A stretch of 41,749 nt of DNA from a virus, in IMG/VR virus record IMGVR_UViG_3300030060_006579, positions 1 through 41,749 of that record; one strand, written 5' to 3'. The notes beneath the pieces were generated by a model. It was not told where the DNA came from. It was given only the letters and a program-made list of their open reading frames with translations, and ran no database searches. Positions 1,337 through 36,700 of this stretch are shown piece by piece. The stretch's first letter is position 1. Each line of letters starts with the position of its first letter. The position numbers were made by a program, and so were the translations under genes.

Positions 1337-1339
1337 AAA

Positions 1340-1975: not shown

Positions 1976-1985
1976 AAACACAAAT

Positions 1986-8098: not shown

Positions 8099-8100
8099 AA

Positions 8101-8889: not shown

Positions 8890-8890
8890 T

Positions 8891-9679: not shown

Positions 9680-9681
9680 AT

Positions 9682-9930: not shown

Positions 9931-9939
9931 AAACACTAC

Positions 9940-10716: not shown

Positions 10717-10722
10717 TTTTAC

Positions 10723-10733
10723 CATATTTATAA
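10723..10733 (+). promoter_or_regulatory. Candidate late promoter element
   Basis: CATATTTATAA lies in the short gap after the sigma-factor gene, 20 bases before the ATG at 10743. It matches TATATTTATAA (15988, 37116) at 10 of 11 positions. It would start the baseplate/hub transcription unit. Confidence 0.45.
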
Positions 10734-10742
10734 TAAAATAAT

Positions 10743-12539: not shown

Positions 12540-12550
12540 AAAAATAAAAT

Positions 12551-14245: not shown

Positions 14246-14251
14246 AATAAT

Positions 14252-14794: not shown

Positions 14795-14795
14795 A

Positions 14796-15971: not shown

Positions 15972-15987
15972 TAAAAATAAACTAATT

Positions 15988-16445: not shown

Positions 16446-16448
16446 TAA

Positions 16449-16880
16449 ATGGCAATTGTCGAAAGAAATAATATAAAAATAAATCCTATAGATTTACCTG
16501 AAAATGATAAAGTAGCGGTAGGTGTTACTTTTCCCTTTGACGGTCCTGCTGTATTTAATTCTTCTTACACTACTAAAGAACAAGTAAAAAGTAACTTAAT
16601 TAATTTATTATTAACTACCCCTGGAGAAAGATTAATGAATCCCACTTTTGGAGTAGGTATTAGAAATCTTTTATTTGAACAAGTTATAGATAAAGAATTA
16701 ATAAAAAACAGAATAATAGATGGAGCTCAGTTGAATATTCCCGAAATAGAAATAGTAAATTTATTTATTAAAAGAGAAAATCAAGAAACAACTCCAGAAA
16801 TACACACAGTACGTATAGCAATATATTATAAATTATTAGCGGATAGATCTACGGACTCAGTATTACTAAACTTTGTATAA
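16449..16880 (+). CDS. gp25: Baseplate wedge protein gp25
   Basis: The 143-residue protein matches the GPW/gp25 family (T4 gp25 has 132 residues). The marks are an N-terminal strand region (VAVGVTFPFDGPAVF), the helix KEQVKSNLINLLLTTPGERL, the signature NPTFGVGIRNLLFE and a C-terminal strand pair (TVRIAIYYKLLADRS). In contractile tails gp25 joins the wedge and triggers sheath contraction and polymerisation. The gene lies 3 bases before the gp6 gene, the order usual in T4-like phages. All key regions are present and no truncation is seen. The leader is A-rich without a Shine-Dalgarno. Confidence 0.95.
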   Translation: MAIVERNNIKINPIDLPENDKVAVGVTFPFDGPAVFNSSYTTKEQVKSNLINLLLTTPGERLMNPTFGVGIRNLLFEQVIDKELIKNRIIDGAQLNIPEIEIVNLFIKRENQETTPEIHTVRIAIYYKLLADRSTDSVLLNFV

Positions 16881-16883
16881 AAT

Positions 16884-18779
16884 ATGGCATTTTCAAAAAC
16901 ATCAAATACTCCTCGAGAAAAAGACATTAAATACTTAAATAAAACTTTTGATGACTTTAAAGCTCAACTAACAGAATTTGCGGAATCTTATTTCCCTGAG
17001 ACTTTTAATGATTTTTCTGATTCATCTCCAGGAGTAATGTTTATGGAAATGGCTTCCTATGTGGGAGATGTTTTATCTTATTATCAAAACGCACAATTAC
17101 AAGAAAACTTTTTATTACTAGCTCAAGAAAAAGAAAATCTTTATAATTTAGCCTATTCTTTAGGATATAAACCTAAAGCAACAAATACTTCAGCAGTAAT
17201 ATTAGACTTATTTCAATTAGTACCATCAGATCCTTCTAATGCTTACCAAGCAGATATGAGTTATGCTCTTACAATAGAAGAAGGTTCAACTTTTATATCT
17301 GAAGAAGGTCCAGAATTTATGATAGAAAAAGATGTAGATTTTGGTATGGATAGTGATATAAGTCCTTTAGAAACAACCGTTTATTCTATTAATAATTCTA
17401 CAAATAATCCTGAATATTACCTCTTAAAAAAAAGAGTAAAAGCCCATTCAGCAACAATAGAAACAGAAACTTTTGATGTTGGAAGTTTTTCTAAATTTTT
17501 AACATTAGAATTAAGTAACCCTAATATAATAGAAATACAAAGTATAACAGATACCGATGGTAATAGATACCATGAAGTACCTTACTTAGCTCAGGATACG
17601 TTATTTGAAGATGTAGAAAATATCGCTAGTAATGATCCTGAATTACATGGTTTTAATGAATCAACTCCTTACTTATTAAAATTAAAAAGAGTTCCTAGAA
17701 GATTTGTAACAAGATTAAAATCAAATAATGTTTTACAAATACAATTTGGAGCAGGAGAAAATAGTGTAGTAGATGAAGAAATTATACCTAATCCAGATAA
17801 TATAGGTTTGGGAATTAAAGATGGAAGATCTAAATTAGAATTCGCTTATGATCCATCAAATTTCTTATATACGGGTACCTATGGAGTAGTTCCTACAAAT
17901 ACAAGATTAAAAGTAGTTTATAAAGTTAATAATTTTGGTAGAGCAGCAAATGTTGGTGGTCAAACTATAACTCGAGTAGGGCAATTAAATCTAAAATTAA
18001 AACCAAACACGGATCCTAGTTTACAACAATATGTTAGAGACTCAATAACAGTAAATAATATTTCTCCAGCTACTGGTGGGGGAGCAGGAGATTCAGTAGA
18101 AGAAATAAGACAAAATGCAATGGCTGCTTTTTCAGCCCAAAATAGAACAGTAACAAAAGATGATTATTTAGTTAGAACTTTATCTATGCCTTCTAAGTTT
18201 GGTAGAGTAGCTAAAGCATATATAACTCAAGATGATCAAATATCTCCTTTAGTCTCAAGTCCGGGTAGAATACCAAATCCTATGGCTTTGAATTTATATA
18301 CTTTAGGATACCGTAGAAATGGTACTTTAACTACCTTAAACCAAGCTACCAAAATGAATTTACAAACATATTTAGAACAACATAGGATGTTAACAGATGC
18401 TATTAATCTTAAAGATGCATTTGTAATTAATATAGGAGTAGATTTTGAAATCGTAACTTTTAAAAACTTTAATAATCAGGTAGTATTAAGAAAATGTTTA
18501 GAAGATTTAAAACTTTTCTTTAATGTAGAAAGATGGCAAATAAACCAACCTATAATAACTTCTGAAATATTCAATACTATTGGAGCAGTAGAAGGAGTAC
18601 AATCAGTAGTAAATGTAAATGTACGTAATATAGTAGGAATAGATTTAGGATATTCTCCCTACAAGTATGATTTAGATGATGCTACTATAAAAGGTACTAT
18701 ATATCCTTCATTAGATCCAAGTATATTTGAAGTTAAGTTTTTAGATAAAGATATACAAGGAAGAATAACACAATATTAA
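16884..18779 (+). CDS. gp6: Baseplate wedge protein gp6 (baseplate J-like)
   Basis: The 631-residue protein is close to T4 gp6 in length (660). The N-terminal region has the typical FAESYFPETFNDFSDSSPGV, then MFMEMASYVGDVLSYYQNAQ and NLYNLAYSLGYKPKA. The central region contains beta-rich domains (FEFAYDPS-like strands, RLKVVYKVNNFGRAANVGG). The J-like domain shows GGGAGDSVEEIRQNAMAAFS, then QNRTVTKDDYLVRTLSMPSK, and the C-terminus is the dimer-type region LGYSPYKYDL. gp6 forms the ring that links the wedges of the baseplate. It follows gp25 directly and precedes a tail protein after 1 base. Nothing odd is seen. Confidence 0.93.
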   Translation: MAFSKTSNTPREKDIKYLNKTFDDFKAQLTEFAESYFPETFNDFSDSSPGVMFMEMASYVGDVLSYYQNAQLQENFLLLAQEKENLYNLAYSLGYKPKATNTSAVILDLFQLVPSDPSNAYQADMSYALTIEEGSTFISEEGPEFMIEKDVDFGMDSDISPLETTVYSINNSTNNPEYYLLKKRVKAHSATIETETFDVGSFSKFLTLELSNPNIIEIQSITDTDGNRYHEVPYLAQDTLFEDVENIASNDPELHGFNESTPYLLKLKRVPRRFVTRLKSNNVLQIQFGAGENSVVDEEIIPNPDNIGLGIKDGRSKLEFAYDPSNFLYTGTYGVVPTNTRLKVVYKVNNFGRAANVGGQTITRVGQLNLKLKPNTDPSLQQYVRDSITVNNISPATGGGAGDSVEEIRQNAMAAFSAQNRTVTKDDYLVRTLSMPSKFGRVAKAYITQDDQISPLVSSPGRIPNPMALNLYTLGYRRNGTLTTLNQATKMNLQTYLEQHRMLTDAINLKDAFVINIGVDFEIVTFKNFNNQVVLRKCLEDLKLFFNVERWQINQPIITSEIFNTIGAVEGVQSVVNVNVRNIVGIDLGYSPYKYDLDDATIKGTIYPSLDPSIFEVKFLDKDIQGRITQY

Positions 18780-18780
18780 A

Positions 18781-19944
18781 ATGGCATATTACTCTATATT
18801 TCCCGAAAAAGACGCAACAATATATAGTCACCCTAACAGAACAGGATTAAATACTGGTGGGGATGAAATATTAGAATTATTAGAAGAAAAAGATTCTAAT
18901 AAAGAAATATATTATCCCTCACGTTTTTTAATTAAATTTAAAAACACAGAAATTAAGGACGTAATAGAAAATAAACTAACAGGAGCAGCCAAAGAAGTAA
19001 ATACATCAAATGTAAAAGTATGCTTAGAAGTATTTTCTACAGAACATAAGTCATTACACACAAATCATATAATACAAGTACATGCAATTTCACAATCATG
19101 GGATGAGGGTACAGGTAGATTTAAAAATAACCCCTCTTCATCTAATGGATGTACATGGGAAATGAGAACAGATACAGGTTCAAGCGCAAGAGCAATATGG
19201 ACTACTTCAAGTTTTGCATCTAATTCCACAGGATCTTCTTGTGAATTTATGACTTTAGGAGGGGGAACTTGGTGGGCAGGAGTAGACTATACAGCAGAAA
19301 CATCTTTTTCAAATGCAGATAATTTAGATTTAAATATAAACGTAACTAATTTTATCAAGTTCTTTTCAGCCAGTTATTACCAAGGAGCAACTTACCCAAC
19401 AGGTATAGAAAATGAAGGATTTATAATTAAAAAACCAGATGCTACTGAATGTGATGCCTCAGCTAGTTTTGGTGAATTACAATATTTTTCAGCAGACACA
19501 CATACAATTTATCCGCCTAAACTAACTTTTAAATGGGATGATTCATCTTATTCTCATAGTGGTACTACTTTAACTAGTGGAGATATATTTTTATCATTAT
19601 ATAATAATAAAGCTGAATTTCAAAGAAAATCAAAACAACGTTTTAGATTAACTACAAGAAAAAGATACCCAGACAGAGCTTTTACAACAAGCTCAAATTA
19701 TCTAGACTTACAATACTTACCAGCAACAAGTTATTATGGGTTACGTGATGCAACAACTGACGAAATAATAATCCCTTTTGATACAGAATATACAAAATTA
19801 AGTGCAGATAGTGATGGTATGTATTTTGATTTATTTATGGAAGGATTGCAACCAGAACGTTATTATAAACTAATGTTTAGAGTAGATAATAATGATGGTA
19901 TTAATATTTATGATGAAGATTATTATTTTAAGGTTGTTAGATAA
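18781..19944 (+). CDS. Tail/baseplate protein, DNRLRE-like beta domain
   Basis: The 387-residue protein begins AYYSIFPEKDATIYS. A beta-rich domain with SRFLIKFKNTEIKD and KVCLEVFSTEH follows. AISQSWDEGTGRFKN and GGGTWWAGVDY then resemble the DNRLRE family of carbohydrate-binding, beta-jelly-roll domains, which have SWxEGxx and W/G-rich motifs. The C-terminal part is a separate beta-domain (RFRLTTRKRYPDRAF, FMEGLQPERYYKLMFRVDN). No catalytic site is seen. The position right after gp6 suggests a wedge or baseplate-edge protein, perhaps an attachment point for fibres. Its stop overlaps the next start as TAATG, so translation is coupled. The domain call is tentative. Confidence 0.5.
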   Translation: MAYYSIFPEKDATIYSHPNRTGLNTGGDEILELLEEKDSNKEIYYPSRFLIKFKNTEIKDVIENKLTGAAKEVNTSNVKVCLEVFSTEHKSLHTNHIIQVHAISQSWDEGTGRFKNNPSSSNGCTWEMRTDTGSSARAIWTTSSFASNSTGSSCEFMTLGGGTWWAGVDYTAETSFSNADNLDLNINVTNFIKFFSASYYQGATYPTGIENEGFIIKKPDATECDASASFGELQYFSADTHTIYPPKLTFKWDDSSYSHSGTTLTSGDIFLSLYNNKAEFQRKSKQRFRLTTRKRYPDRAFTTSSNYLDLQYLPATSYYGLRDATTDEIIIPFDTEYTKLSADSDGMYFDLFMEGLQPERYYKLMFRVDNNDGINIYDEDYYFKVVR

Positions 19945-21773
19945 TGGGTAGAATAGATCCAAAAATAGTAGTAAAAGGAGAAGAAAGTCCAATTAAGATT
20001 GTAAAGCTTAAAGGAAAAACTTCAGCTGAAAGTGGCCATCAACACGATTTTGTTATTTATGACGATGATACAGTTGAAATTTTTGAAGTTATTACAAAGA
20101 ATACCGCAACGGGTAAACCAGAAAGACATACTCATGAATATCTAGGTGAATACCCTTATGGGGTTATGTCAAAAGTTGCAAGAAGCTCAGCAGATAAAAA
20201 CACTGTTCATTTTCACAAAATAGATAGTGTTTCTTATCCTATTGACTTGCAAAAAAAGATTTATGGTAAAGTTTCATTTAAAGATAAAATAGATAAAAAA
20301 TTCAGTGAATTTGGATCCCAAACTGAAAATATAAGTATGGATGAATTTTTTCAACATTACCAAAATTTATTTTATGAAATACCAAAAGACGGAAATAATT
20401 CTCATAAATCAATAATATTACAAAGTACAGAATATGTTGGTGGTATAATAGATAGTAGAGATACTGAAATAATAAGTCTTACAAACCAAGTAGTAGATTT
20501 GGAAAGAAAACTAGCAGAAGCAGAAGAAGCGGATAAAGAACATCCAGTGTTTACAAATGGTACCTTCCTTAAAGAAGCAGATAAAGCTACAGTTTACTAT
20601 ATGGATAAGGGGGCTAAAAGACCAATCGCAGATTATGATACTTACTTAGTACTTAAAAGAGTTAATGGTCACGAATTAGACAAACCAGATGAAGAAGTTT
20701 ATATATTAGTTAATGAAGATGTGATTAAAGGATTAGACACAGGACCTAGATTTACTTCTGAAGATTTATATGGTGATGAAGAACAAAGAGATAAGGAAGA
20801 AGAAAAGAAAAGAGTAGAATTAGACCCAGATGATTTCATAGCAGATCCTTCTCATTATAACACTACAAGTGACTATATTGAAGCATTAGATAGAGAAACA
20901 AGACAATTATTAGCTAAAGAAGAATACGTACAAGAATTATACTACAGATATAAAGCCGACAGTGAAAATATTACAGACAGTGAGGAAAGAGGAGAGGCAT
21001 CTAGTAAATTCCAAGAAATACGTCAAGAATTATATCACTTAAGAAGAAAAATATTAAGATATACAGACATTTTAGAATCAGTAGATCCAGATGGAGATTT
21101 ACAAAACATAGAAATAGACACTTCACAATTAAAACAAATTGTAGAACAAAAAATGTCTAGACCTGATAATGAATTTACTCAAGCAGAACTTCAACAATTA
21201 AGATCTAGAGAAAATAAGATAGAAAGATTTTTAGATTCCCAAGGAAGAGCAACATATGGTGGATCTACTAGATCAACATCTGGAGGATCAGGAACATCAA
21301 CTCCATCAAGTGATTCAGGAGCTATGTCAGGATATTTAGCTTCAGCAGGTATAACGGGTGTGGATGCAGCAACAGAAGAACAACCTAAAAACCCACCAGC
21401 TGGATATGTATCTAATGGAAATAGAACGGTAAAAAATCACACAGCAGAGGAAGCAATAAGAGCCATGAAATTAGGAGCAAGATCACCAGGAGGAAATTAT
21501 TATTGGACTTTAAAACCTAGAAACCAAAACACGGAAGAAACTCCTAAATTAATAAACCCACAGTGGACAATATATGAACAAAATCGTGCAAAACCAATTC
21601 CTATAAATGGAGGTACTTATGCAGCACAACAACAAAAGATAAACATATATGCTGAAAAACCAGTTTCTAAATATTGGTGGTCAACTAATAAATTTGAATG
21701 GTTCCCAGTACCGGGTAAATTTCCTGGTGTAAGAGCTAGAAAATGGGAAGGTAAAACTATTCATAAACTTTAA
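19944..21773 (+). CDS. Tail structural protein with three HxH motifs
   Basis: The 609-residue protein has near its N-terminus three His-x-His motifs at residues 32-34 (HQH), 62-64 (HTH) and 89-91 (HFH), at even spacing in a beta-rich context. The middle (about 110-370) is helical and highly charged (VDLERKLAEAEEADKE, RQELYHLRRKILRYTDIL). A Ser/Gly/Thr-rich linker follows (about 430-450), and then a C-terminal domain (SKYWWSTNKFEWFPV). HxH motifs in phage tail fibres and spikes are known to bind iron or other metals (T4 gp37 tip), so the N-terminal part may be metal-stabilised. It starts on the last base of the previous gene. The place between gp6 and the giant protein suggests the baseplate wedge, but no T4 counterpart is recognised. 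Confidence 0.55.
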   Translation: MGRIDPKIVVKGEESPIKIVKLKGKTSAESGHQHDFVIYDDDTVEIFEVITKNTATGKPERHTHEYLGEYPYGVMSKVARSSADKNTVHFHKIDSVSYPIDLQKKIYGKVSFKDKIDKKFSEFGSQTENISMDEFFQHYQNLFYEIPKDGNNSHKSIILQSTEYVGGIIDSRDTEIISLTNQVVDLERKLAEAEEADKEHPVFTNGTFLKEADKATVYYMDKGAKRPIADYDTYLVLKRVNGHELDKPDEEVYILVNEDVIKGLDTGPRFTSEDLYGDEEQRDKEEEKKRVELDPDDFIADPSHYNTTSDYIEALDRETRQLLAKEEYVQELYYRYKADSENITDSEERGEASSKFQEIRQELYHLRRKILRYTDILESVDPDGDLQNIEIDTSQLKQIVEQKMSRPDNEFTQAELQQLRSRENKIERFLDSQGRATYGGSTRSTSGGSGTSTPSSDSGAMSGYLASAGITGVDAATEEQPKNPPAGYVSNGNRTVKNHTAEEAIRAMKLGARSPGGNYYWTLKPRNQNTEETPKLINPQWTIYEQNRAKPIPINGGTYAAQQQKINIYAEKPVSKYWWSTNKFEWFPVPGKFPGVRARKWEGKTIHKL

Positions 21774-21778: not shown

Positions 21779-24700
21779 ATGGAAAAAGTCACAATAAATA
21801 AAATAGAAAGACTTAAGATAGAAGATTCTCAGGGTTTAACTTCTAGAGACATTAAAAGGAAGTTTGGCAAAAGCAATGACTATGTTGAACTTCATGTTTT
21901 AGATTTAGGAGGAGATTTATTATATAGTGCTCCTAATTATAATGGTTATTCTCTTCCTAATCAAATAGAAAGCACAGAGAATTCCACATTAACAAGTACT
22001 TTATTTATAGATCCATATAAGTTTTTACAAGATAATGATTTTTACGTAGGACAATATAATGTAATATGTAACATCCATAGAAAAAAGATATTTAGTGGGT
22101 TACAAGCAGATTTTAAAATCCATGAAATTTCTCCATCAAGAACAGAATTAAAAATAAAAGCATTAGGAAATGTTGAGGATACATTTAAACAAGCAGTATT
22201 AGATTTTATAAGTGAAATAGAAGGATCTCTTTTTAATAAAGATTTTACACTTAATTTTGGAAACAATACAAATATACTAGGAATAAATATAGCATATAAT
22301 AATCCAGACGAAACAGCCTTAATTAAATTATATGAACCTCTTCCCCCTGAAATAGAAAAGGGAGCTACATTTTGGGTAGTAGAAGAAATTATAGAACCTT
22401 TAGAATTTAAAGTAGATTTAGGTCAACCAACAGAAGTAGAAACAGGAATACCTTTAAGGGGACCTAATTTTAGAATAGATACTCGTTTAAATGATTCTAT
22501 CCCTTCTCAATTTAAAGTATATAACGACTTTTTAGAAAATACAAACTCATCCTCATTATACACTGTAATGAGTAGTTTAAGTGAAAGTATAGAATTATCT
22601 ATAGATTATACTAAAACAGGCACAGGTTCTTTAGAAACAGGATTCCATTTTGAAAATTTTACTCATTTTGGTAGTGCAGAAGAAAGGTTAAAAAACTTTA
22701 AATATAAATTAGAATTATTAGAATTATTTGATAGACAGATAAACGAAATATCTACTATTCAAGGTAGTGTATCATCTTCTGTAGCAGTTACTTCTAATAT
22801 TAATTTAATAGAAAATAAAAAAGCAAAATTAATATCTGGATTTGACAATTATGAAAAATTCTTATATTATGAAAACCACCCCTTTGCTTGGCCTAAGGTT
22901 CCAGATTTTGGTATAGGTAATTTACAAGTAACAAATTCAGCATTATTACCTGAGTCAATATATTTAGAGGTAGGATTAACAGATTGTGATGTATTTTTTA
23001 AACCATTTAATTTAAGACCTACTACTTCATCAGAAGCTATAGAATGGTATGGCAGTACAAATGATTTAAATATAAATTATGGAGGTCAAATATTATCAGC
23101 TTCTAGATTTGATAGAGATAATAAACATAGTTTAGTAAGAACTATTCCTGAGCATGTTTCTATGAGAGAAGAAAATGCTCAATATATTACTTTTACTAAT
23201 ATGATTGGTCATTATTTTGACCAAATATGGATTTATATAGACCACATAGGACAAATTAGAAATGCACATAATTCTTTTAAAGATGGTATTTCAAAAGATT
23301 TAGTATACACTGCTTTAAGTAGTTTAGGTGTAGAAGCTTTTGATCAATTTGAAAATGAAGAATTATTTGAGTATATCATAGGAACTAATAAAGCTAAATC
23401 AGGTTCTTTTGGAACATATGATGCTCCTGATGGAACCATTATGGTAACTTCTTCTTTAGTAACATGTGATAACGGAGGAAGTTCCGTTCCTAAAGGAGAT
23501 ATAACAAAAGAAATTTGGAAAAGATTATACCATAACTTACCTTATCTTTTAAAGACTAAAGGAACAGAAAGAGGAATTAAAGCCCTTATGAATTGTTATG
23601 GTGTTCCTGAAACTATATTAAATGTAAAAGAATATGGTGGCCCAACAACAGATTCTACTACTTATAAAACATTTAATTATGAAAAATTTTCAAGAGCATT
23701 AGAGGGAAGTTCGAACACAGAAGGATATTTTATCAAGGCACCTTGGGCAGCTACATCTTCCTTATTTACAGGAGTTATAGAAAGTAAACCTAATAGATCA
23801 GAGGGTAAAATAATATTTTCCGTAGGAGCAATAAGAGAACTATTTAACCAACCTTTTCCTAAAACAGTAGAATTAACAGCAACGGATTTATCAGTTCATA
23901 CTTTTACTTCAAATTATGATTTTGTATTACATGAAGAAAGTGGGCTAGAAACAGCTGAAAGTTTAGCAGAAGCTATAGATGCACATCCTTTATTTTCAGC
24001 CTCTGTTTTTGTAAGAGAAGATTTACTTGATCCCGCTCATGAAAAATATAATTTAGATATAGAAATAATGCTTACTCAGCATTTACAAGGTGTAGATGGT
24101 AATACAGAAATAAAAGGTACATTATTTGAAGACACATTAACACCTGCTTGCGGTAACCCACAACAATTTCCTGAAGTTGAATTTTTAACAAAAGTAGACT
24201 TTAATGGGGGAGGAGGTATAAATAATTCTATTTCTACGACAACAGTGATACCTGGTCTTAATACATGTGCAAGTAAAATATTAATCCAAAACGGAATATT
24301 AGAAGATGGAACAGGTAATTTAATTAACAATGGACTATTTCAGGACGAAGCAGAATTTATGGACTTTGTTACTGATATAAGAAACGGATATATAGACAAA
24401 GATATATCTTTATATTCATTTGAATCCTTATCACCATCAGCAACTCCTTTATACTTAGGAGATAAACAATGTACGGGAGTAAATGATTATGGTTTATTTG
24501 TAATAGAATGTTTCAAAGCAGATAATTGTGCAAGTCTCCCACCTACAGCGGTATCCTCTCCTACAACAGCAGTACAAGGAACTACAGCAGTAGGTACAAT
24601 AACTATCCCTAATGCGGTAGGAGGAAATAACAATTTATATACAGGAGAAACAGTAGTATTAACAGCCGCAGATGGAAGTATACATACTTTTACATTAATA

Positions 24701-27700
24701 GGAGGAGGTTCAGTAAATTCAATAGGTCAAGATCTTACTAATCAAATAAATGCTAACCCTAATTTTACAGCTGTAAATTTAAACTCAGTCCCTTCAAGAA
24801 TAGGGTATGCTTTAGAAATAACAACAGTAGCTACTGGATCTAATGCTAATACCCCTATACAAGGTACTGCACTTAACATGCCAGGAGACACATCTTTTAT
24901 GTCTTTAACAACTGTAGGATTTACAGGAGGTATAGACGAAGTAATAGCAACACCTGATCCAGAACCAGATACTCCTTGTAATGCAACTTTGCAAATTTAT
25001 GTTGAAGGAGGAACATATTTTGATGTTTCAGCTACACAATTTACTAATTACTTAATTCAGGGAAGTACAGGAGATCTTACTTTAGATGATTATTTAGTAC
25101 AAGCTTTACCACAAGCTCAAAATCAATGGACTTATAATTCTTCACTTCAATCTTTTGAAGGAGATCCTACAACCATGACAGCTACACCAGCAATTTATAT
25201 AAGTAGTGTATCTATTCTTCAAGGAAAATATTTAACTCCTTTGGAAATACTGCAGTACTTAGACTCTGATTGTGGTGATGTGTCTTCCTTAAATAGCGTG
25301 TGTTATACTAATTATACTACGTTTATAGACGCATTAAATGCTGAAGGTATAGTAAATGATAATGTACCAGGAATAAATGTAAATACAAAATGGTCTGAAT
25401 TAAAAGCACCAGATATTATAACCCACTTTCCCGCATCCTCATCTTGTGGGTGTCATGAATTTACTACAGGTACTATTACTACAACAAATGTTTTAACTCA
25501 ACAACCAACAGTTAATCCTAGTATACCTTTAGGACAAGGAGCCCAAAATAGTAATTATGGAAAATTTGGAGCTAGATTCTATGCAGATACTAATTCATCT
25601 ACTTTTTATGATATTCCCGCTTCAGTAAGTACTTATTTTGGGGGGACAAATCAAAATGATGGAAGATTAAATAACATAGGAGTTTGGGATGGAACAAATC
25701 CTTTTACTGGGGGATTAACTGAGATGAATCCTTTATACCAATGGATAGGATTTTCAAGATGTATAAATGTACCACAAGATGGAGAATATTTAATAGGTTT
25801 AGCAGGAGATAATGAAATAAGATTTGCACTAAATGGTCAGATATTAATTGAAAAAAACCAAAGTAATTTTTTTGATGGAGCTAGCTTTGAATATTGGTGG
25901 GTTTATAAAGTAAATCTAACAGCGGGAGACAATACAATAGTTTTAGAAGGAAAAAACAACAGCTCTATAGCCTCTTTTGGATGTGATATAGTAGGACCTT
26001 TTCCAGTAGGAACTTTTAATTCGGAAACTGATTTTGAAGATATAGATAATGATGGAATTACTGTAGGAGGAACTTATTATCTTAATTTAGAGGAAGCTTA
26101 TAAAAATAATATAATATTTAGTAGTGAAGACGAATTAAACGCTGCAACAGCGGGAGGAGAAACATATATGAATCCGGGAGATGCGGATCCAACTTCAGAT
26201 ACAGGAGTAACAGATGAAGCATCTAACTATGAAGACCCTAATCTTGGAGGACTTCCTCAATTAGATTGGTTTATAGCTAATGATCCAACAGGTCAAATCC
26301 AATTTAAAAAGTTTGCATATTCTCATCCAGATTATCTAACGGGAATAAATCCAACAGGAAATGCATTTACACCTTGTCTTGAACCTCAAAATCAACCAAC
26401 ACGTTTAGATGCAAATGGTCTTCCAACATACTGGTATAGGATATTTTCTTTTACTTTAAGTTCTACAGGAGGTCCTTCATCAGGGGGTACAATTACAGGT
26501 CATATGTCTCAATATACAGGTAATGGCTTACATTATACAGACTTAGGTAACCATAATAGTTGGGAAGATTTTATAAATGCATTAAACGCAGCAGGAGGTC
26601 CTGAAACATTTAGTATTACTGAGTCTAGAGCTCAAGTATTAGAAAAAATAAGAAGTGCAGAACAATCTGCAATATTAGCTAATCCTGATTTAAATTACGA
26701 TATTCAAGTTTCTATTACCACAGCTGTATCTCCTGTTACTTGTCGACCAGGAACAACCACAACTGGAGGAGAATTTAATACACAAACAAATGAATGTCCA
26801 GAAGGTTATTTATATAATGAATGTACTGGACTTTGTGAAAAAACAGAAATAGAAACAACAACAGGTTCTTGTGATGGAATGGTTATTAACCCAGAAGGAA
26901 ATGGATCATTTGAAACATCAGCAGATTTTGTAGATTATTTTACTGATTTTGATAATGGTTTTTATGGTCAAAACATAGATGACTTTTATTTTGAATCTGA
27001 TGAACCTTTACCTTGGGGAACTTTTGTAGCAGATCAATGTACAGGTTCTAATGGGTTACCTATTAGAAGAGTAGTTGGTTTTAGAAAAGACCAATCAGTA
27101 CTACCTGTAGATAATACTTTATATACAAATTACGAAACATTTGTAAATCAATTAAACACAGATGGGCATGGTGTACCTACACCTCCCCCTATTTTTTCAG
27201 AATTAACAGCAGCTATAATAACATCATCTTTTGAGGGATCTTGCCAACATAAAACATTTATATCAAACCCATTAACATCAGATGGTACTTTCCCTAATCC
27301 AGGATCTGGAAATACAGGTATAGTTGATTTCTTAGAATATTATTCTGAACAAAATAATAATATACAAAGTGTAGCAATAGATGGATTTAGTTTTGCAGTT
27401 GCAAAAGAAACTTTAGAAACAACCACAGAAACATGTGAAGTAAACGCAGATATGTTTGTATTTTATGACATGACTTCTATGGATAGTAGTACTAGACAAA
27501 CAGCTTATAATGGTTTTAAAGCATGGCATCAAATTCAAGTAAATAACGGATACACAGGAAGAGTAGTACACATTCAATTATATGGTGAACGTTGGATATT
27601 ATGGCCGGCATGGATTTTAAACCCACAAGACCCATCATTAACTAAAAATTATGATGGTTCAGAATGGTATGGTAGACAAGGAGGAAATAGTTCACATAAC

Positions 27701-30700
27701 CAAACTGCTAATACTAGCTTTACCACAGATGATGCAATGTCAGGAGTTGATACTCATAAAAATTCAACATCGAATATACGACCTTTAGATGCTTGGGTTG
27801 CTGATAATAATGCAATATTAAATGCAGACCAACAAACATTAGGAAAAACAATACCTACGAATCCAACAGACCCAGCATATAATGGAATAGCAAATGATGC
27901 TAATGCAATAGTAGTTTGTTTTGCAGATGAATCAGATGGTATCCCTAACCAAGTTGATGGTGTACATAGTACTCTTAGTGGTACTACTGAAAAGGGTAGA
28001 TACCAAAGAAGAGGAACATATCACCACCAAACAGACACTGATCTTAATTCCCATATGACTGATTGGTATGAGGCAGGTTTATACTATCAAAGAAATCCAG
28101 CATCTTTCAATTCAATTCCAGGTTTTGGAAAAGATGGTAATGTTAGTTTAATGTTAAATAATGATTACGAAGAGGATAGCAACCAAACAGGATTTAAAAA
28201 ATCGGGAGATAGTGCTCCTGAAGTAACAGATTTATGGAAAATAGATTATACTGAAGCTACAACTAGATTAGCCGCTCATGGAGGAAATATAGCTACGTTT
28301 GTATACCCTGCAAGGGTGGGTCCCGCAAAATCTCATAGAGCCTTCCCATTACATGTTATAGGTGCTATAGAAAGTGGACCTAATAATGATGGATTATTAC
28401 CAGTAGGAGACCCTAAATATACGATATGTACTGCAGCTGATCTTACTAATATCACTGTTGAAAATCCTTATTTTACTTCGGGATACGGTGGGTTAGATCA
28501 ATTTGGATTTGCGTATAATGTAACAGTTGTTTCTACAGCAAATGCTTCTACATTTGAAGGAATTATAAATACTGATCTAACTCAATTTATTGAAGAATCA
28601 GAAATATGTGAATCAGTTACTGAAACAATATTTACTGATCCTAACGTATGTGAAGATGAAAATGGTAATCCTATATTCCATATTAATGAATTCTTTATGG
28701 ATCCCGCAGTGGAAACACAACCTTTCACAACATATACAGATTATATAAGTCATGCACAAAATAAAGGATATGCCCTAACATTAGCTGATACCAGACTAGA
28801 ATCTCAAATAGGAGGACCTATAGTAGCAGACGAATGTATATGTGCAGATGTTTGTCCTAATGACTTAGTACTTAATGATAATACAATTATTACAGTAACA
28901 GGATCAATCTTTGATCAACACAGTCATCCTTTTGTACAAGGGGATGGTATTATACAATCAAATAACCCTAACTTTACAGCAATTGTACAACAAATAGATG
29001 ATGTTTCAAATGCATTAATAATAAATGTCACAGGGGGTACCTTAAACTTTACAGATCCTTTAATATCCATAACCACAGGAAATCAATATATACCTGATCC
29101 CCAATTAAATGAGTTCATAGTTCCTCAACCACAGGGAGTATTTGCAAATTATGATGAATATATGAATTTTATTTCTAATCCTGTAAATGGATATAATGAT
29201 GTAAACTTAAATACATTAAAATTCCATTTAGTTGATCAGTCTTATCAACAAATAACTGTAGAGGAAGAAGATTGTTCTATAGAAGCAGACATATATGTGT
29301 TTTATGATCATACTTCAATGGGGGGAACAGCAAGAGAAAATGCTTTCAATGCTATAAATGATTGGGTTTTAGATTTACAAGCAACTCAAGGATTCAATAA
29401 AAATGTCTACCATATAAAAGCAAATGATGAAAGATGGGTAAGATGGGGAACAGCTGCTATGGAGGGACTTAATACAACTTTAGCATCATCAATTTACCCA
29501 ATAGAACCTCATTTAGCTGTAGCAGAAAATGATCCAAACATAAATGTTTATAGTAATACTTTTGCAAGTTCTAATGGCAATTTTTCAACAGTTGGAGTCC
29601 CAACAGGGGATATTTTAGTTATTTGTTATTTAGATGAAGCAAATGGGGGTTATGTTGATCAAGCTACAAATAATTTAGCTCCGGATTATAGTAATCTTGA
29701 ACCTAAAGTAAATTGGCAAACAGACCATACAGATTACATAACAGCTTATAACAATTATACGGCAGGGAATGTAGCATGTTTCTTTTACCCAACTCCAGCA
29801 TCTCCTACTTCTGTAAACGGTATATATTCAGCAACTATGTTAGGTGCTTTAGCAGGAATAACTAGTGGAGATAATAATAATGGATTATTAGCTAATCCTC
29901 CAGCTTCAAATCATGGGGGGTATGATTCAACGGGTACTTTAATAACTCCGGGAGCAACTACTTTTGATGCAATAAAAAACAAAAACCCATATTTTGATGC
30001 TGGATATGGAGAATTAAATAAATATGGTTGGGGAACTAATATAACATACCCTATAATGTCTTCACAACAATTATCTACAGATCTTAATGAATTTGTATCT
30101 ACTTCAGAAATATGTGAAACTGAAACAGTACAAGAAATCACAGTAGATATATTATGTACTGGTTCTTTATCTACAGATATTAACCAATATGGATTATTTA
30201 CAGTTGAAGGATTTTATCAAAATGCTTTAATTGAAGCTTCAACAACAACAAACCAATATGCATCTGATTCAACGTTTTATACAAATTGGGAAAGTTTTAT
30301 TCTTCAAAAGATTCAAGAAGATGGAGCAACGGGCATTGATTTCTTAAATAATAATGGAGCAAATATTAGTGTAAATACAACATGGTACCAGTTATCAGCA
30401 TCTGTAGAACTATTAGGAACAGGAACAGTAACTACTACAACTACAACAACTTACCCACTAGTAAATGTGTTTGATAACCAATCATCAATATATAATAATA
30501 CTAATCTTAATTCTGGAATAGCAGGAACACCAAATGACCAATTAAATTGGTTAATAGCTAATGGTCATGGACAAAATATAGATGGGTACTATTTTATAAA
30601 CACAGACTTAGATGAAACACAAGCTCCATATAATAGTTGTACAGGAGCTAATTTACCAGCAGGAGGAGGAGTATACAGTACAATAACTGATTTTACTTTT

Positions 30701-33670
30701 ACAACAATACCGGGCTTAACTTTTTCAAGTGCAGGAGGTACTTACACAAGTTGGCATACATTTATTGATACTGTAAATAGTTTAAATTTTGAAGTTACAC
30801 CAGGAACATCAGTCACTACATTTAACCAACCATGTGATGTAGGAATAAACACAGGTATCTCAGGACAAACTAGTCAAGGATTTACATACATTCATACCTT
30901 TTTAGCTGGTAATGTTAATGATGTTCATAATCTATATGTAGATGCTTATATTTCAGATGATGCTACAGCTAATGTAGTTGGATATTATTTTGAAGATACT
31001 AACCCAAGTAACACTTTTACTAATACATGTACTCCAGAAGCTTATCGATATGGAAAAAATTTCCAAGTAGATTGTGATATGAATACACATCCAACTATAC
31101 CATCTAGTACTCTTGCTGCTAATGGGTATTTTGGAAGTATAATGCAAACTGGTCTTACAAAATCTCCAACATATGATAGTTATGCACAACTTATTGATGC
31201 ATTAAATAGTGCTTGTAATTACCAGGGAGACCAAGATCAATTTAATTATTCAGATACCCCAGAAAATGTAGCTGCAACTATAAGTGCACTTGTTAGTGGC
31301 CATCCAAGATATGAAGGACAAATAGTACTAACTAATTTAGACATGTATGTAGAAACATGTACTTGTAGTACTACAACAACAGACCCGACTTCAACACAAG
31401 TAGATATTTTCACTTATTCTGACGATTTAACAACAGTATTAAATTATTTTAATATTACCTCAGAAACACCTTACAGTGCGAATTTTAGTATAAATTTCAG
31501 TGCTGCTAATTGTAATGAAATACCAGGTCCTCCAGTTGATGTAGATGTTTACGAAACTCAAAGCATAGGAGGAAATGTATCATTATATGGACAAATAGAG
31601 GGGGGAGCATGTCTTTGTATTCCAGAAGCAACAGGAGGAGAAGATTTAGATGGAGACATCGAATTTGAATCTTGTATTTGTTGTCCTGAATCATCATCTA
31701 TAGAAATAGGATGTTTAATAGCAGGAGAAGTATCTAGTAGTAGATGTGAATGTTCAGCAGATACTTTTGAAACAGTTATAGAGTTTGTTTCTGCTAGTGC
31801 TTTTGATATAATTCCATCTAGTTCTGCTAAAATGGTAGAATTTAGAATAAAACCACATAGATTAGATAAACCTGTATACACATCTTTAGAAGCATGTTGT
31901 GATCCTGTTGTAACAATACCAACAGCTTCACACTTATTTAGTTTATTTAATCCCTCACAACCACAAGCAACACCACACTTAATTTTAAGACCATACACAG
32001 GTAGTGATGTTTCATCCTCTGATGATTTTAGAAATTTTGGTTCATTAGATTTATATAAAAATGGATCGGTAGTAGGCAGCACGGACATATTCCCTGTTTA
32101 TAATGGAGCTTTTTGGAACATATTTATAGGAACTAAAGGAGAATCAGGAAGTAGTAGTGAAGTATATTTTGGAGCTTACCAGTCAAATTTCTTGGGCCAT
32201 GTTACTCACCTAACAGCTTCCGCTACATTTAGTGAATATGAAAGAGCAGTCTCTTTTGGAGATACAGCTTATAACTTAACTAATAATATATCACCTGCAA
32301 AAATAGCATACTTTTGTGGGATTCCTACTAATACTAATTCAGTATTAGGGGATGTAAATACATTTGAATACTCAGGTTCTCTTCAAGAAATTAAATATTA
32401 TGTTAAGGATTTCTTAACACACGATACTTTAGTAAAACACGCTTTAGATCCTTTCCAATATGCTGGTAATACCGTTAGTTCATCTTGGAATAATGTATTT
32501 TTAAGATTACCTTTAGGAAGTAACAATAAAGTAGATTCAGCTTCTTATAATAATAATGGATTAGGAATAATTCAAAACTTTAACCCACACCCATCATTTA
32601 GTTTATATGAATCTTCAAGTATATCTAGTTCTGTTACTAACCAAGTATTTAGCGAAGTTTATGAAACTCATAGACATTTAACCCCTGATACTGTAGGTAT
32701 ATCAACTACTAGTGAAAAAGTAAGAATAGATTCGGGTTCTGTAGATAGAAGTATATTATCTTTTGATATAAGATCAGAAACATCTACTTTAGATAGACAA
32801 CCATTAGATTATAATGATTTAGGAGTATTTTTCTCACCACAAGCAGAAATTAATGAGGATATAGTTTATACCTTAGGTGCATTTAGAATGGATGATTTCA
32901 TTGGAGACCCAACTCACCAAAGCTTAGCAGAATATCCTGATTTAGAAGAATTAAAATTAGAATATTTCCGAAAATATTTAAATAGCCACAGACAAAATAT
33001 GTTTGACTATATAAGATTAATTCAATTTATAGATCATACTTTATTTAAAGTAGTGGAACAATTTGTACCTGCAAAAGCTAATTTAAAAACAGGTTTATTA
33101 ATTGAACCTCATTATTTAGAAAGACAAAAATTTGCAAGACAAATACCTACATTTGAAAGACTAGAAAGAGAAGCAATAATAGATTCTTATGTTTATCCTT
33201 CGGGAGAAGTAAAACAATATGAAGCATGTATTAATATATCTGATAAAACAAATGAAAATTACTTCACTTGGGTAGGAGCTTTAACAGCAAGTGATAACTT
33301 ATACATGAGTCAAAGTAAATACGCTTCGGACGAATGTAACCCATATATTACTTTATATGATAATTTTGACCCATTATATGGTAATTTTGTAGATTGTATA
33401 ATTAGTAAAGAATATTATTATATTTCAAAACCACCACAATTTACTTTTGGTAATGATCCTACAAATCCAGGTATAAGTCCAGACATAGGAATAAATCCAG
33501 TTACTCCTTCAAAAGGATCAGGAATTGGTATTTATCCAGGATCCGTAACATATGTAGCTGTTAAGGGAGCAACATCACCAGCATCGTCACTAGCGTCGTC
33601 TCCAGTTTCAAACACAGGAACATCTACTAATGGAAGTGGAGGAAGTTCAGGAGGAAGTTATGGAGTATAA
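21779..33670 (+). CDS. Giant 3963-residue mosaic tail/baseplate protein
   Basis: By far the longest gene here. Residues 1-670 look like an ordinary tail structural protein (YVELHVLDLGGDLLYS, IWKRLYHNLPYLLKTKGTER). Residues about 680-3270 are a mosaic of repeated modules: short IxTFxxx/NANPNFTA-type domains, a PA14/lectin-like domain (about 1257-1410, with GEYLIGLAGDNEIRFALNGQ), two related vWA-like modules (1886-2277 and 2499-2779) and about six YTNxxxFIxxLN segments, joined by Thr-rich linkers and rich in Cys. Residues about 3330-3570 are LamG-like (MVEFRIKPHRL, DLYKNGSVVGST, YSGSLQEIKYYV). The end (about 3570-3963) has an N-terminal-like helical part and a Gly/Ser tail (GGSSGGSYGV). By position it may be the gp7-type wedge protein or a long fibre, extended with host-binding modules. 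No frameshift is seen over 11.9 kb. Precise role not known. Confidence 0.75.
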   Translation: MEKVTINKIERLKIEDSQGLTSRDIKRKFGKSNDYVELHVLDLGGDLLYSAPNYNGYSLPNQIESTENSTLTSTLFIDPYKFLQDNDFYVGQYNVICNIHRKKIFSGLQADFKIHEISPSRTELKIKALGNVEDTFKQAVLDFISEIEGSLFNKDFTLNFGNNTNILGINIAYNNPDETALIKLYEPLPPEIEKGATFWVVEEIIEPLEFKVDLGQPTEVETGIPLRGPNFRIDTRLNDSIPSQFKVYNDFLENTNSSSLYTVMSSLSESIELSIDYTKTGTGSLETGFHFENFTHFGSAEERLKNFKYKLELLELFDRQINEISTIQGSVSSSVAVTSNINLIENKKAKLISGFDNYEKFLYYENHPFAWPKVPDFGIGNLQVTNSALLPESIYLEVGLTDCDVFFKPFNLRPTTSSEAIEWYGSTNDLNINYGGQILSASRFDRDNKHSLVRTIPEHVSMREENAQYITFTNMIGHYFDQIWIYIDHIGQIRNAHNSFKDGISKDLVYTALSSLGVEAFDQFENEELFEYIIGTNKAKSGSFGTYDAPDGTIMVTSSLVTCDNGGSSVPKGDITKEIWKRLYHNLPYLLKTKGTERGIKALMNCYGVPETILNVKEYGGPTTDSTTYKTFNYEKFSRALEGSSNTEGYFIKAPWAATSSLFTGVIESKPNRSEGKIIFSVGAIRELFNQPFPKTVELTATDLSVHTFTSNYDFVLHEESGLETAESLAEAIDAHPLFSASVFVREDLLDPAHEKYNLDIEIMLTQHLQGVDGNTEIKGTLFEDTLTPACGNPQQFPEVEFLTKVDFNGGGGINNSISTTTVIPGLNTCASKILIQNGILEDGTGNLINNGLFQDEAEFMDFVTDIRNGYIDKDISLYSFESLSPSATPLYLGDKQCTGVNDYGLFVIECFKADNCASLPPTAVSSPTTAVQGTTAVGTITIPNAVGGNNNLYTGETVVLTAADGSIHTFTLIGGGSVNSIGQDLTNQINANPNFTAVNLNSVPSRIGYALEITTVATGSNANTPIQGTALNMPGDTSFMSLTTVGFTGGIDEVIATPDPEPDTPCNATLQIYVEGGTYFDVSATQFTNYLIQGSTGDLTLDDYLVQALPQAQNQWTYNSSLQSFEGDPTTMTATPAIYISSVSILQGKYLTPLEILQYLDSDCGDVSSLNSVCYTNYTTFIDALNAEGIVNDNVPGINVNTKWSELKAPDIITHFPASSSCGCHEFTTGTITTTNVLTQQPTVNPSIPLGQGAQNSNYGKFGARFYADTNSSTFYDIPASVSTYFGGTNQNDGRLNNIGVWDGTNPFTGGLTEMNPLYQWIGFSRCINVPQDGEYLIGLAGDNEIRFALNGQILIEKNQSNFFDGASFEYWWVYKVNLTAGDNTIVLEGKNNSSIASFGCDIVGPFPVGTFNSETDFEDIDNDGITVGGTYYLNLEEAYKNNIIFSSEDELNAATAGGETYMNPGDADPTSDTGVTDEASNYEDPNLGGLPQLDWFIANDPTGQIQFKKFAYSHPDYLTGINPTGNAFTPCLEPQNQPTRLDANGLPTYWYRIFSFTLSSTGGPSSGGTITGHMSQYTGNGLHYTDLGNHNSWEDFINALNAAGGPETFSITESRAQVLEKIRSAEQSAILANPDLNYDIQVSITTAVSPVTCRPGTTTTGGEFNTQTNECPEGYLYNECTGLCEKTEIETTTGSCDGMVINPEGNGSFETSADFVDYFTDFDNGFYGQNIDDFYFESDEPLPWGTFVADQCTGSNGLPIRRVVGFRKDQSVLPVDNTLYTNYETFVNQLNTDGHGVPTPPPIFSELTAAIITSSFEGSCQHKTFISNPLTSDGTFPNPGSGNTGIVDFLEYYSEQNNNIQSVAIDGFSFAVAKETLETTTETCEVNADMFVFYDMTSMDSSTRQTAYNGFKAWHQIQVNNGYTGRVVHIQLYGERWILWPAWILNPQDPSLTKNYDGSEWYGRQGGNSSHNQTANTSFTTDDAMSGVDTHKNSTSNIRPLDAWVADNNAILNADQQTLGKTIPTNPTDPAYNGIANDANAIVVCFADESDGIPNQVDGVHSTLSGTTEKGRYQRRGTYHHQTDTDLNSHMTDWYEAGLYYQRNPASFNSIPGFGKDGNVSLMLNNDYEEDSNQTGFKKSGDSAPEVTDLWKIDYTEATTRLAAHGGNIATFVYPARVGPAKSHRAFPLHVIGAIESGPNNDGLLPVGDPKYTICTAADLTNITVENPYFTSGYGGLDQFGFAYNVTVVSTANASTFEGIINTDLTQFIEESEICESVTETIFTDPNVCEDENGNPIFHINEFFMDPAVETQPFTTYTDYISHAQNKGYALTLADTRLESQIGGPIVADECICADVCPNDLVLNDNTIITVTGSIFDQHSHPFVQGDGIIQSNNPNFTAIVQQIDDVSNALIINVTGGTLNFTDPLISITTGNQYIPDPQLNEFIVPQPQGVFANYDEYMNFISNPVNGYNDVNLNTLKFHLVDQSYQQITVEEEDCSIEADIYVFYDHTSMGGTARENAFNAINDWVLDLQATQGFNKNVYHIKANDERWVRWGTAAMEGLNTTLASSIYPIEPHLAVAENDPNINVYSNTFASSNGNFSTVGVPTGDILVICYLDEANGGYVDQATNNLAPDYSNLEPKVNWQTDHTDYITAYNNYTAGNVACFFYPTPASPTSVNGIYSATMLGALAGITSGDNNNGLLANPPASNHGGYDSTGTLITPGATTFDAIKNKNPYFDAGYGELNKYGWGTNITYPIMSSQQLSTDLNEFVSTSEICETETVQEITVDILCTGSLSTDINQYGLFTVEGFYQNALIEASTTTNQYASDSTFYTNWESFILQKIQEDGATGIDFLNNNGANISVNTTWYQLSASVELLGTGTVTTTTTTTYPLVNVFDNQSSIYNNTNLNSGIAGTPNDQLNWLIANGHGQNIDGYYFINTDLDETQAPYNSCTGANLPAGGGVYSTITDFTFTTIPGLTFSSAGGTYTSWHTFIDTVNSLNFEVTPGTSVTTFNQPCDVGINTGISGQTSQGFTYIHTFLAGNVNDVHNLYVDAYISDDATANVVGYYFEDTNPSNTFTNTCTPEAYRYGKNFQVDCDMNTHPTIPSSTLAANGYFGSIMQTGLTKSPTYDSYAQLIDALNSACNYQGDQDQFNYSDTPENVAATISALVSGHPRYEGQIVLTNLDMYVETCTCSTTTTDPTSTQVDIFTYSDDLTTVLNYFNITSETPYSANFSINFSAANCNEIPGPPVDVDVYETQSIGGNVSLYGQIEGGACLCIPEATGGEDLDGDIEFESCICCPESSSIEIGCLIAGEVSSSRCECSADTFETVIEFVSASAFDIIPSSSAKMVEFRIKPHRLDKPVYTSLEACCDPVVTIPTASHLFSLFNPSQPQATPHLILRPYTGSDVSSSDDFRNFGSLDLYKNGSVVGSTDIFPVYNGAFWNIFIGTKGESGSSSEVYFGAYQSNFLGHVTHLTASATFSEYERAVSFGDTAYNLTNNISPAKIAYFCGIPTNTNSVLGDVNTFEYSGSLQEIKYYVKDFLTHDTLVKHALDPFQYAGNTVSSSWNNVFLRLPLGSNNKVDSASYNNNGLGIIQNFNPHPSFSLYESSSISSSVTNQVFSEVYETHRHLTPDTVGISTTSEKVRIDSGSVDRSILSFDIRSETSTLDRQPLDYNDLGVFFSPQAEINEDIVYTLGAFRMDDFIGDPTHQSLAEYPDLEELKLEYFRKYLNSHRQNMFDYIRLIQFIDHTLFKVVEQFVPAKANLKTGLLIEPHYLERQKFARQIPTFERLEREAIIDSYVYPSGEVKQYEACINISDKTNENYFTWVGALTASDNLYMSQSKYASDECNPYITLYDNFDPLYGNFVDCIISKEYYYISKPPQFTFGNDPTNPGISPDIGINPVTPSKGSGIGIYPGSVTYVAVKGATSPASSLASSPVSNTGTSTNGSGGSSGGSYGV
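27434..28609 (+). repeat. vWA-like module, copy 1, within the giant protein gene
   Basis: It encodes residues about 1886-2277, bounded by Cys at both ends (CEVNADMF to ESEIC). It begins with a hydrophobic strand and an Asp-x-Thr-Ser motif (FVFYDMTSM), continues with VVHIQLYGERWILWP and NAIVVCFADESDG, and ends NPYFTSGYGGLDQFG then FIEESEIC. The order matches copy 2 at 29273-30115. The likeness to von Willebrand A domains (metal-binding D-x-S/T start) is tentative; the duplication itself is plain. Confidence 0.7.
29273..30115 (+). repeat. vWA-like module, copy 2, within the giant protein gene
   Basis: It encodes residues about 2499-2779, with the same Cys boundaries (CSIEADIYVF to STSEIC). Landmarks parallel to copy 1 are YDHTSM, VYHIKANDERWVRWG, DILVICYLDEANGG, SGDNNNGLL and NPYFDAGYGELNKYG. 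It is about 110 residues shorter than copy 1, mainly in the middle. Similarity is at the protein level with many substitutions, so the duplication is old. Confidence 0.7.
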
Positions 33671-33702: not shown

Positions 33703-36700
33703 ATGGCACAGGCACCACAAAATACATGGAATAATAGTTGGGGTAGTATAAACGACCATAATTCCACACCTCCTTCGGGATGGACCTTTATACCAAATGA
33801 GAAAGTTTGGAGGTATACTGGCCAACTTTCTAATGAAACCTTTCAACCTATAGATGGTGGACCTAATCCCCCTCCAACAAACACAACAATATACTTAACA
33901 TCATCAGTAGATTGTTTTCCAGATGTAATTGTTAATTCCACAGGAGATCCAGTAGTACCACCAACAGGAGACCCAGTAGTTATACCGGGGACAACAACAG
34001 GTACAAAACCTTCAACTCCTCCATCACCACCAGTTAGTCCTGGTGTACAACCTGTACCTACATTTGGTAAATTTTATAACGTATGTTTTGATGATGGGCT
34101 TTTAAACCAAAAAGGTTGGACTAGACCAAGATTTGAGGGAACTAAATTAAGAGCATTATATTATAATGAATATACTAATGAATTACAAGAGGGGAAAGAA
34201 TTAAGCCCCATCCAAAACCCTAATTTGGATACAAGTATAGATAAATTAAAGTTTATAATAACAGCTTCTCACCAAATAACATCATCCGAATTACAAAATA
34301 CGTTAGGTAATCCTTTTGAATTTGATAAAGACAGTGGTATTGTTTATACCTTACGTGGGATTACTGAAAAATCATGTGATTGGACAACTGAATTTAGAGA
34401 AGATTTAGCAGTTAGAGAAAAATACCCTCCAAAATCGGTAGGGGGGACTGATACTAATGGAACTGATACTACAGCTGATGGGATAAATCAAACTTATCAA
34501 TTATCTTCTTCTGATCTTCCTGTTGCTCCTTTTGGACCTGATGTTTATGATGTACCTTTAGTACCTACATCATATTATAAATTAAATCCCTACACTCAAG
34601 AACCAGAAAAAGTAGAAAGAAAACAAAAAACGTTTGATTTAATTCCTACACCTATAAAATTAAACCCAGTAGATCCTAAGGGACTAAATGGAGGACCTTT
34701 CTTTTTAGGAACGGATCCAGGACAAAATGAAGAAATAACATCAAATAATAGATTACCATCAGAATATCAAATTAAATACAAACAAAGAGATTATGTATAC
34801 ACAGGTCCTTGGCAACATGAAACAGAAACAGGACAATTTGCTGCTGGTACTGCTGATTTAAGTCAGTGGACTACTTGGGGATATAATGAAACAGAAATTT
34901 CTAGATCAGCAATTATTCCTGAAAGACAATCAGAAGGAGACATTACTTATGGTAAATCACCTGTTATTGAAAATTATTCAAATGCAGTATTTTTTGGAAA
35001 TACAGTATACGGTTATCAACAAAGTGATGTATTTCCAGGACCGGGACCTGATTTTTCATATCTTAAATTAGAAAAAGCTTATATATTTAATTCTGAAGAT
35101 GATTCTTTCTATGTACAAGAAATAAAATCAGAAGGAGAAGATAGAACATTCCAAAACTTAATGCAATCTACTTTTCCTTGGTCTACAGATTTTAGGTTAA
35201 AATTATTAGATTATGACCAAGAAAATAACTTAAAAACAAGTTATGGAGTTCATTGGAATAGAGGATATTTTTCTGAAATAGCAACTTACACAACTGAATC
35301 AGCTAATAGAACAGCATCGGGACATTATCCAGGAACAGGAATTAATTTTGAATTAGGTGATGGTAGATATGTAGCAGGAGGAAATGCAAACTTTACAGGT
35401 TCCGGTGGTGGACTCTTCAGCCAATACTTTTCCCAATTTTTAGGAAACCAAACACCTGTTGCAAATAATAATTCAGGTGATTTAAATGAAGGAGCTCAAT
35501 TTAGAAAAGCACCTACGGGATCGGATGATGGTGGTTATTATTATATGGTTAGTGATAATGGAGGAGGAGAAGGATCTTTATTTTATGGAACTTTTAAAAG
35601 AGCAGGAGCTGATTTTGGTAGAGAAGAACAAAATTTCCCTAGATATCAAACAATGGTAGATGCAGGTAATTGGAAAACAGGTCCTGGAACAAGTAATTTC
35701 TTTGGATTGGATCCTTTACCTGGTGGTATGAGATACTATCAATTTAGATTTTGGCCAGTACATAGACCGGTAGGAGGAATGAGTGCTGATGGAGGAACGT
35801 CTCCTAATAGTACTAAAATGCTAGGAAGAGTACTATCAGGAACTTTTGAAATAAATGATAAAAATCCATCTGCAGACTGGTGGTTTGAACAAGGAGGAGA
35901 AAAAGAAATAAAATGGGTTTCTGAAAGTTGTGCTGGGGACGTAACATCAAGTATGAAAATATTTATGGATCAATGTCATAAACAAGACGATCTATATATC
36001 CTTACATTTAATGAAGCTAAATTTGTAGATAAATCCTTTAATCAAGGATTCCAAAGAGAAACTCATCCATTCTTAAAAAGAACAAGATCGGATGTACCTG
36101 GATATCCAGGAGATCCTAATTGGTTTAATTCTTCTTCAGGAGCATATGAACCTTATGGTGATGCTACAATGGGAACAGATGACCATATAGCAGACTATAG
36201 TTATTATATAAATTACGTTAGACCTTTTAACACATTTGGATCTATGTTATATAGTAACAGACCTGAAGCTGTAGGTGTAAGAAACGCACATAACCTATTA
36301 GCGGGCTTAGGAGACGCAGCAGAAATAGGTATGGGATGGTATGATTATTCAGAAGAAGCATTAGAATGGTCATCTACAGTAGGACAAACTATAAATCCAG
36401 CAACAGGAGAAATTTGGTCTGTACATGATGAGGGATATAAAGGAAAATACACGGGATATGGACCTATGGGAGGAATATATGCTTACGGTATAAATGCCCC
36501 TAGATTTATGAATGGAGATGCTTTTATACAGACAGGTGATAGAGACGGAAAAAGTTTCACAAATGATGGGAACGGAACACAAACACAAAATATAAAAGAT
36601 GCTGCTGGAAATGTGATTCAAACTAATACAAATGGAACTTTTGTAGTTGATAGTGTTAGTGTTTGGACAGGATACATGTATGGAAATAACTGGAGACATT

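Follow-up and report, generated by a model that had tools for sequence, protein, structure and literature searches.

A giant Cys-rich insert in a loop of a LamG-type domain of a tail protein from an uncultured phage

The window, by which we mean the whole 41,749-base stretch of AT-rich viral DNA that was analyzed (IMG/VR record IMGVR_UViG_3300030060_006579, G000), contains a single open frame at 21779-33670 that encodes a tail protein of 3963 residues (P0001) and has the same GC content as the remainder of the window. This gene and all features of the two LamG proteins described below lie on the + strand. Baseplate genes run along the same strand, including a gp25-like wedge gene (16449-16880) and a gp6-like wedge gene (16884-18779), both with PHROG matches and the latter also aligned to T4 gp6 by hhalign (86.9% probability). 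The giant ORF is the third gene downstream of the gp6-like gene, and these gp25-like and gp6-like neighbors are baseplate genes of the contractile-tail type. The protein begins with a conserved domain (residues 1-640, 21779-23698) that includes a KTKGT motif and is common to several hundred viral homologs, and it ends with a second conserved domain (residues 3591-3830, 32549-33268), which is 75-93% identical among the giant proteins. In hhalign, the N-terminal domain showed no profile similarity to T4 gp7, gp8, gp9, gp10 and gp11 or to P2 I, J and H, and its profile gave no matches among PDB sequences. A gp7/gpI-like identity was considered and found to be without profile support (<1% probability, against 86.9% for the gp6 control), in a comparison with single-sequence targets, which may miss a remote kinship. 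It is the gene order that suggests a baseplate place for this domain. Within it, residues 1-180 (21779-22318) are 33-45% identical between the window and L005, and the following 450 residues are 63-88% identical. The sole match of the domain in GTDB genomes, L137, is on a contig in a 1.3 Mb MAG labeled "uncultured bacterium" and may be a mis-binned phage contig.

IMG/VR was searched with both ends of the protein, which returned close giant relatives (L001-L008, L011-L013) and short homologs, and a profile of the N-terminal domain found at least 590 relatives, from which 80 loci were retained. The complete short ORFs bearing this domain are mostly 854-2150 residues long. Sixty-four short ORFs match the window protein, and none of them matches within residues 690-3300. 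The middle of the protein is absent from shorter homologs, which the sequence-only reading of this DNA had proposed to check, and a family of constant length with the same middle throughout is excluded. The closest insert-free homologs are 44-50% identical to the window protein at both ends, with the alignment jumping from residues ~658-674 to ~3346; L018, for example, matches residues 9-674 at 48% and residues 3346-3794 at 52% identity. Three states are found among the relatives, namely no LamG domain, a LamG domain, and a LamG domain with the giant insert.

Alignment with 28 uninterrupted, LamG-bearing homologs places the insert at residues 657-3349 (23747-31825; 2693 residues, 49 Cys). On its left are the first LamG strands (residues ~636-656, 23684-23746), ending with GYFIKAPW, and on its right is the remainder of the split domain (residues 3350-3590, 31826-32548), beginning with AKMVEFRIKP. 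The loop between these two motifs is 8-22 residues long in the 28 homologs and 2693 residues long in the window protein, as illustrated by GYFIK-TPWSMGKPPSAA-KTVEFRIKP in L018 compared to GYFIKAPW-[2693 aa]-AKMVEFRIKP in the window. At the junctions, W656 is followed by AATSS on the left, and SSS precedes AK on the right. Of the two LamG edges proposed earlier, the MVEFRIKP side was located correctly (AKMVEFRIKP, at 3350), while SKPNRSEGKI, near residue 670, falls inside the insert, the true left edge being W656.

We further characterized the interrupted domain on a predicted structure of L053, an uninterrupted homolog of 1124 residues (mean pLDDT 56, with the LamG region mostly at ~60-85). 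A Foldseek search with this model gave weak matches (best E 0.005), pentraxin and LamG folds among them. Superposition of L053 residues 628-897 with VIA-align gave Z values of 10-13.8 against the PAPP-A LG domain, PTX3, SAP and laminin LG. The insertion point maps to about L053 residues 647-654, with predicted strands at 624-637 and 644-646 before it and at 655-662 after it. In the Pfam search, this LamG-type domain had no match, indicating that it is a divergent member of the LamG/pentraxin group, and the strong matches of the L053 model in a viral structure library were all to uncharacterized or unnamed proteins. The domain modeled in L053 thus has a LamG/pentraxin β-sandwich fold, and from the alignment we infer the same fold for the interrupted domain of the window protein. 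Taken together, the 64 uninterrupted homologs, the loop length of 8-22 against 2693 residues and the LamG/pentraxin fold strongly support the location of the giant insert in a loop of a LamG-type domain, in agreement with the original proposal that a mosaic had been inserted into such a domain.

In a tree of 83 rows, the giant proteins group together in one clade with an SH-aLRT support of 100, nested within a set of 40 insert-free sequences, and scanning for the first part of the insert gave matches from this clade only. The simplest reading of the tree is that the insert was gained once. Complete giants measure 3963 (window), 3991 (L005), 4173 (L003 joined with L011) and 4352 residues (L007, read from G006 as L143). 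Their inserts are 2694 (counted to the next residue), 2737, 2915 and 3122 residues long, with 49, 54, 57 and 66 Cys, respectively. The giant-clade phages are uncultured tailed phages; those of their relatives that have names are phages of a Flavobacterium and of a cyanobacterium.

The insert is a mosaic of repeated modules. The best internal repeat scores were 181, 165, 148 and 106, compared to a shuffled maximum of 67; together with the single open frame, this bears out the initial description of a 3963-residue tail protein with a mosaic in its middle, and both ends are conserved phage sequence. Module A is present at residues 678-800 (23810-24178) and again at 957-1078 (24647-25012). An "ETF" repeat of ~70 residues occurs three times, at residues 847-917 (24317-24529), 1704-1774 (26888-27100) and 2450-2508 (29126-29302), and a module that we refer to as FYDxTSM occurs at residues 1886-2250 (27434-28528) and 2501-2772 (29279-30094). 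Residues 1240-1450 (25496-26128) contain a PA14-like module, which was matched by PF07691 at 20.5-22.3 bits in the window, below the curated Pfam gathering cut-off of 24, and found in six of six giants. The right edge (residues 3281-3349, 31619-31825) is Cys-rich, with the pattern ESCICCPE...CECS, and its Cys are invariant in four giants. The middle is unusually rich in Cys, as had been noted from the sequence: the content is 1.8% in residues 657-3349 (49/2693) and 0.8% outside (10/~1270; Fisher p=0.011). Across the four giants, 42 of the 59 Cys are invariant, and the cluster at 3278-3325 is among them. The insert has a low content of basic residues and Thr-rich linkers. PHROGs contained no family for the first part of the mosaic, and an AlphaFold prediction of residues 1160-2330 had a pLDDT of 37, too low for a fold search. 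The vWA-like label given earlier has no statistical support, since PF00092 was absent and hhalign with a vWA profile gave a probability of 0.1% against 92.8% for the control. The sole resemblance is a D-x-T-S-M stretch behind a hydrophobic strand, which recalls a MIDAS.

Comparison of the giants points to different rates for the insert and its scaffold. The insert of the window protein is 59, 58 and 38% identical to those of L003, L005 and L007, against 85, 67 and 64% for the N-terminal end and 90, 90 and 68% for the C-terminal end. By these identities, the insert changes more quickly than the scaffold around it. Individual stretches are also exchanged. Window residues ~1885-2280, which hold the first FYDxTSM copy, are only 17-32% identical to L003 and L005 (~25% overall), whereas the same stretch is 64-85% identical between L003 and L005 and ~39-67% between L003 and the distant L007, and the flanks are at 58-86%. 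The stretch is thus divergent in the window but alike among its relatives, indicating that the window holds a different cassette. The replacement seen in L005 affects another stretch (~1441-1680), and L006 and L007 are without the second copy of module A and have two related-looking copies at other places.

Other contigs encode large Cys-rich proteins that also contain the FYDxTSM module, with profile E-values of about 1e-36 to 1e-43. In L101, L105, L107, L110 and L144, the module-bearing Cys-rich proteins are encoded among structural genes. The L105 major capsid protein matches csAssE-Sib and Cellulophaga phi17:2/phi4:1, a common gene order is found in L101, L103, L105, L107, L110 and L144, and genes adjoining the FYDxTSM proteins match head and packaging families. 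On these grounds, several of the FYDxTSM-bearing contigs are classified, by sequence, as crAss-like. None of the named phages or GTDB genomes searched contained the module, and its profile had no matches among PDB sequences. A 210-kb viral contig, L108, carries adjacent Cys-rich ORFs at 7136-15982 and 16015-21237 (2948 and 1740 residues, with 146 and 90 Cys), the first of which has repeated FYDxTSM modules.

A second tail protein with a LamG domain is encoded in the window at 38938-41568 (876 residues; Laminin_G_3, E=3.5e-9). Its LamG hairpin loop contains an insert of 215 residues (residues 421-635, 40198-40842) with three Cys, which is missing from short homologs: it lies between YPFEIFLSGS and LCFRRSNG, where the short homologs run directly from YPFEVY..G to ..FSRSDG. 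The presence of a second LamG-loop insert in the window indicates that such insertion is not a single accident in the giant clade. The homologs of the second protein in L034 and L050 have an additional insert of ~500-590 residues at another site. The alignment score for a module common to the two inserted proteins was 70, against a shuffled maximum of 87, and profile comparison found one region at 11% probability. On these results, we do not claim that the two proteins share a module.

The closest known parallel is the evolved Dit, in which carbohydrate-binding modules occupy loops of a galectin domain (PMC7291167). In both cases, extra modules are placed in loops of a β-sandwich in a conserved tail protein and are absent from some relatives; the sandwich is peripheral in Dit, and that of the giant protein is probably peripheral in the virion too. 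However, evolved Dits are siphophage proteins with one or two carbohydrate-binding modules of demonstrated binding, whereas the giant protein, known from sequence, has a LamG domain with a Cys-rich, many-module insert of 2.7-3.1k residues and is encoded beside T4-like baseplate genes. Its scaffold has gp25-like and gp6-like genes as neighbors and does not qualify as a siphophage distal tail protein. By analogy, the best reading is that the giant protein would work like an evolved Dit without being one, as an extreme version of that principle. Jumbo phages are reported to have LamG and concanavalin-type lectin domains in tail fibers and in virion proteins (PMC7824862), as ordinary domains of the same fold, whereas here the LamG domain hosts a giant insert. 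Uncharacterized homologs in Flavobacterium phage vB_FspM_immuto (1265 residues) and Microcystis phage Mel-JY01 (1336 residues) share the N-terminal domain (~30% identity), the C-terminal domain and the place after the gp6-like gene. Unlike the window protein, they have no insert, and that of immuto is also without the LamG domain (its alignment passes over window residues ~642-3642). The crAss-like proteins of L101, L105, L107, L110 and L144 resemble the insert in their FYDxTSM module (profile E ~1e-40) and high Cys content but are stand-alone proteins of 1.5-3.2k residues, without the baseplate N-terminal domain or a split LamG. Mosaicism by fragment shuffling, including module exchange among tail proteins, has been surveyed in general terms (PMC10684548), and the exchange seen here is alike, while that survey does not appear to describe a split LamG with a giant insert. 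Our search of open-access journal papers found no description of an insert this large. We judge the architecture to be a variant of the known decorated-tail principle, extreme in scale.

We consider it fairly likely that this contractile-tail baseplate-region protein, with its LamG-loop insert, is a doubly anchored modular host-contact arm. The giant insert is probably a very large arm with which the phage grips its host. The LamG sandwich would serve as a mounting platform and, since both insert ends leave one short loop, the insert may project as a doubly anchored arm of about 285 kDa per copy. This geometry assumes that the LamG domain forms across an insert of 2.7k residues. The conserved Cys cluster at the right edge could staple the base of the arm by disulfides. 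Modules might bind glycans or proteins of the host surface or matrix, giving the virion a multivalent first contact, and cassette exchange would alter specificity. The putative role as a very large modular receptor-binding device, suggested in the sequence-only reading, is supported indirectly, by the position among tail genes, the faster evolution of the insert, its exchange of cassettes and the sub-threshold PA14-like module. If this is correct, a tail domain tolerates and retains, within one loop, an insertion ten times as large as itself, the protein is a concrete case where host range could be linked to defined cassettes, and annotation based on length or on protein ends overlooks the adhesion part of giant-clade phages. 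LamG loops would then be slots for interchangeable host-contact modules common to unrelated phage groups. More tentatively, the arms may represent a new class of adhesion device, with doubly anchored, disulfide-stapled loop arms in the LamG loops of two proteins here and modules exchanged between contractile-tail and crAss-like phages; we regard this as possible but doubtful.

Low basic content, Thr-rich linkers and the lack of any module with a firm annotated binding family would also fit an insert that, instead of binding a host-specific receptor, acts as a general adhesion or protective coat (for particles, gels or tail shielding), with module turnover by drift. We find this unlikely, because cassettes are replaced between conserved flanks, a pattern typical of host-range determinants, and conservation of 42 of the 59 Cys argues for maintained folds. 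Still less probable is a polyprotein whose proteolysis releases the insert, or single modules of it, as separate proteins that are secreted or become part of the virion: the chain, of ~430 kDa when intact, is very long and has many linkers, but the two scaffold halves would need to reassociate across the cuts, and neither a protease nor a cleavage motif was found. The clean interruption of one site, with flanks of normal length, recalls a self-splicing or homing intein-like element that would leave a normal protein of ~1270 residues. This is very improbable, since no intein or endonuclease domain was found, the junctions (W656/AATSS and SSS/AK) lack the Cys/Ser and Asn residues that inteins have there, one insert module is common to proteins in structural gene clusters, and we know of no intein near 2.7-3.1k residues. 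Although the ORF comes from a single metagenome contig, an assembly chimera or fusion artefact can be dismissed almost entirely, as homologous same-site inserts, 38-59% identical, are present in contigs of several IMG assemblies, where the ORFs that are complete measure 3991, 4173 and 4352 residues.

Other genes in the window also merit mention. Positions 33703-37086 encode a tail protein of 1127 residues, about twice the length of its homologs in insert-free phages (mostly 440-660 residues). An ORF of 1082 residues at 1986-5234 starts like a signal peptide, contains many copies of the repeat GCTDPxALNYDPxANxDDGSC and has a Por_Secre_tail domain (type IX secretion sorting, E=4.7e-11); its product is a phage-encoded protein with a predicted Bacteroidota secretion signal. 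An Amidase_2 protein (12551-14245, E=1.1e-6) contains one copy of the GCTDPAALNFNPDATQDDGSC motif, as in the repeats of the 1986-5234 ORF. Finally, the gene at 9940-10716 has a weak match to sigma-70 region 2 (E=0.048) and may encode a gp55-like late sigma factor.
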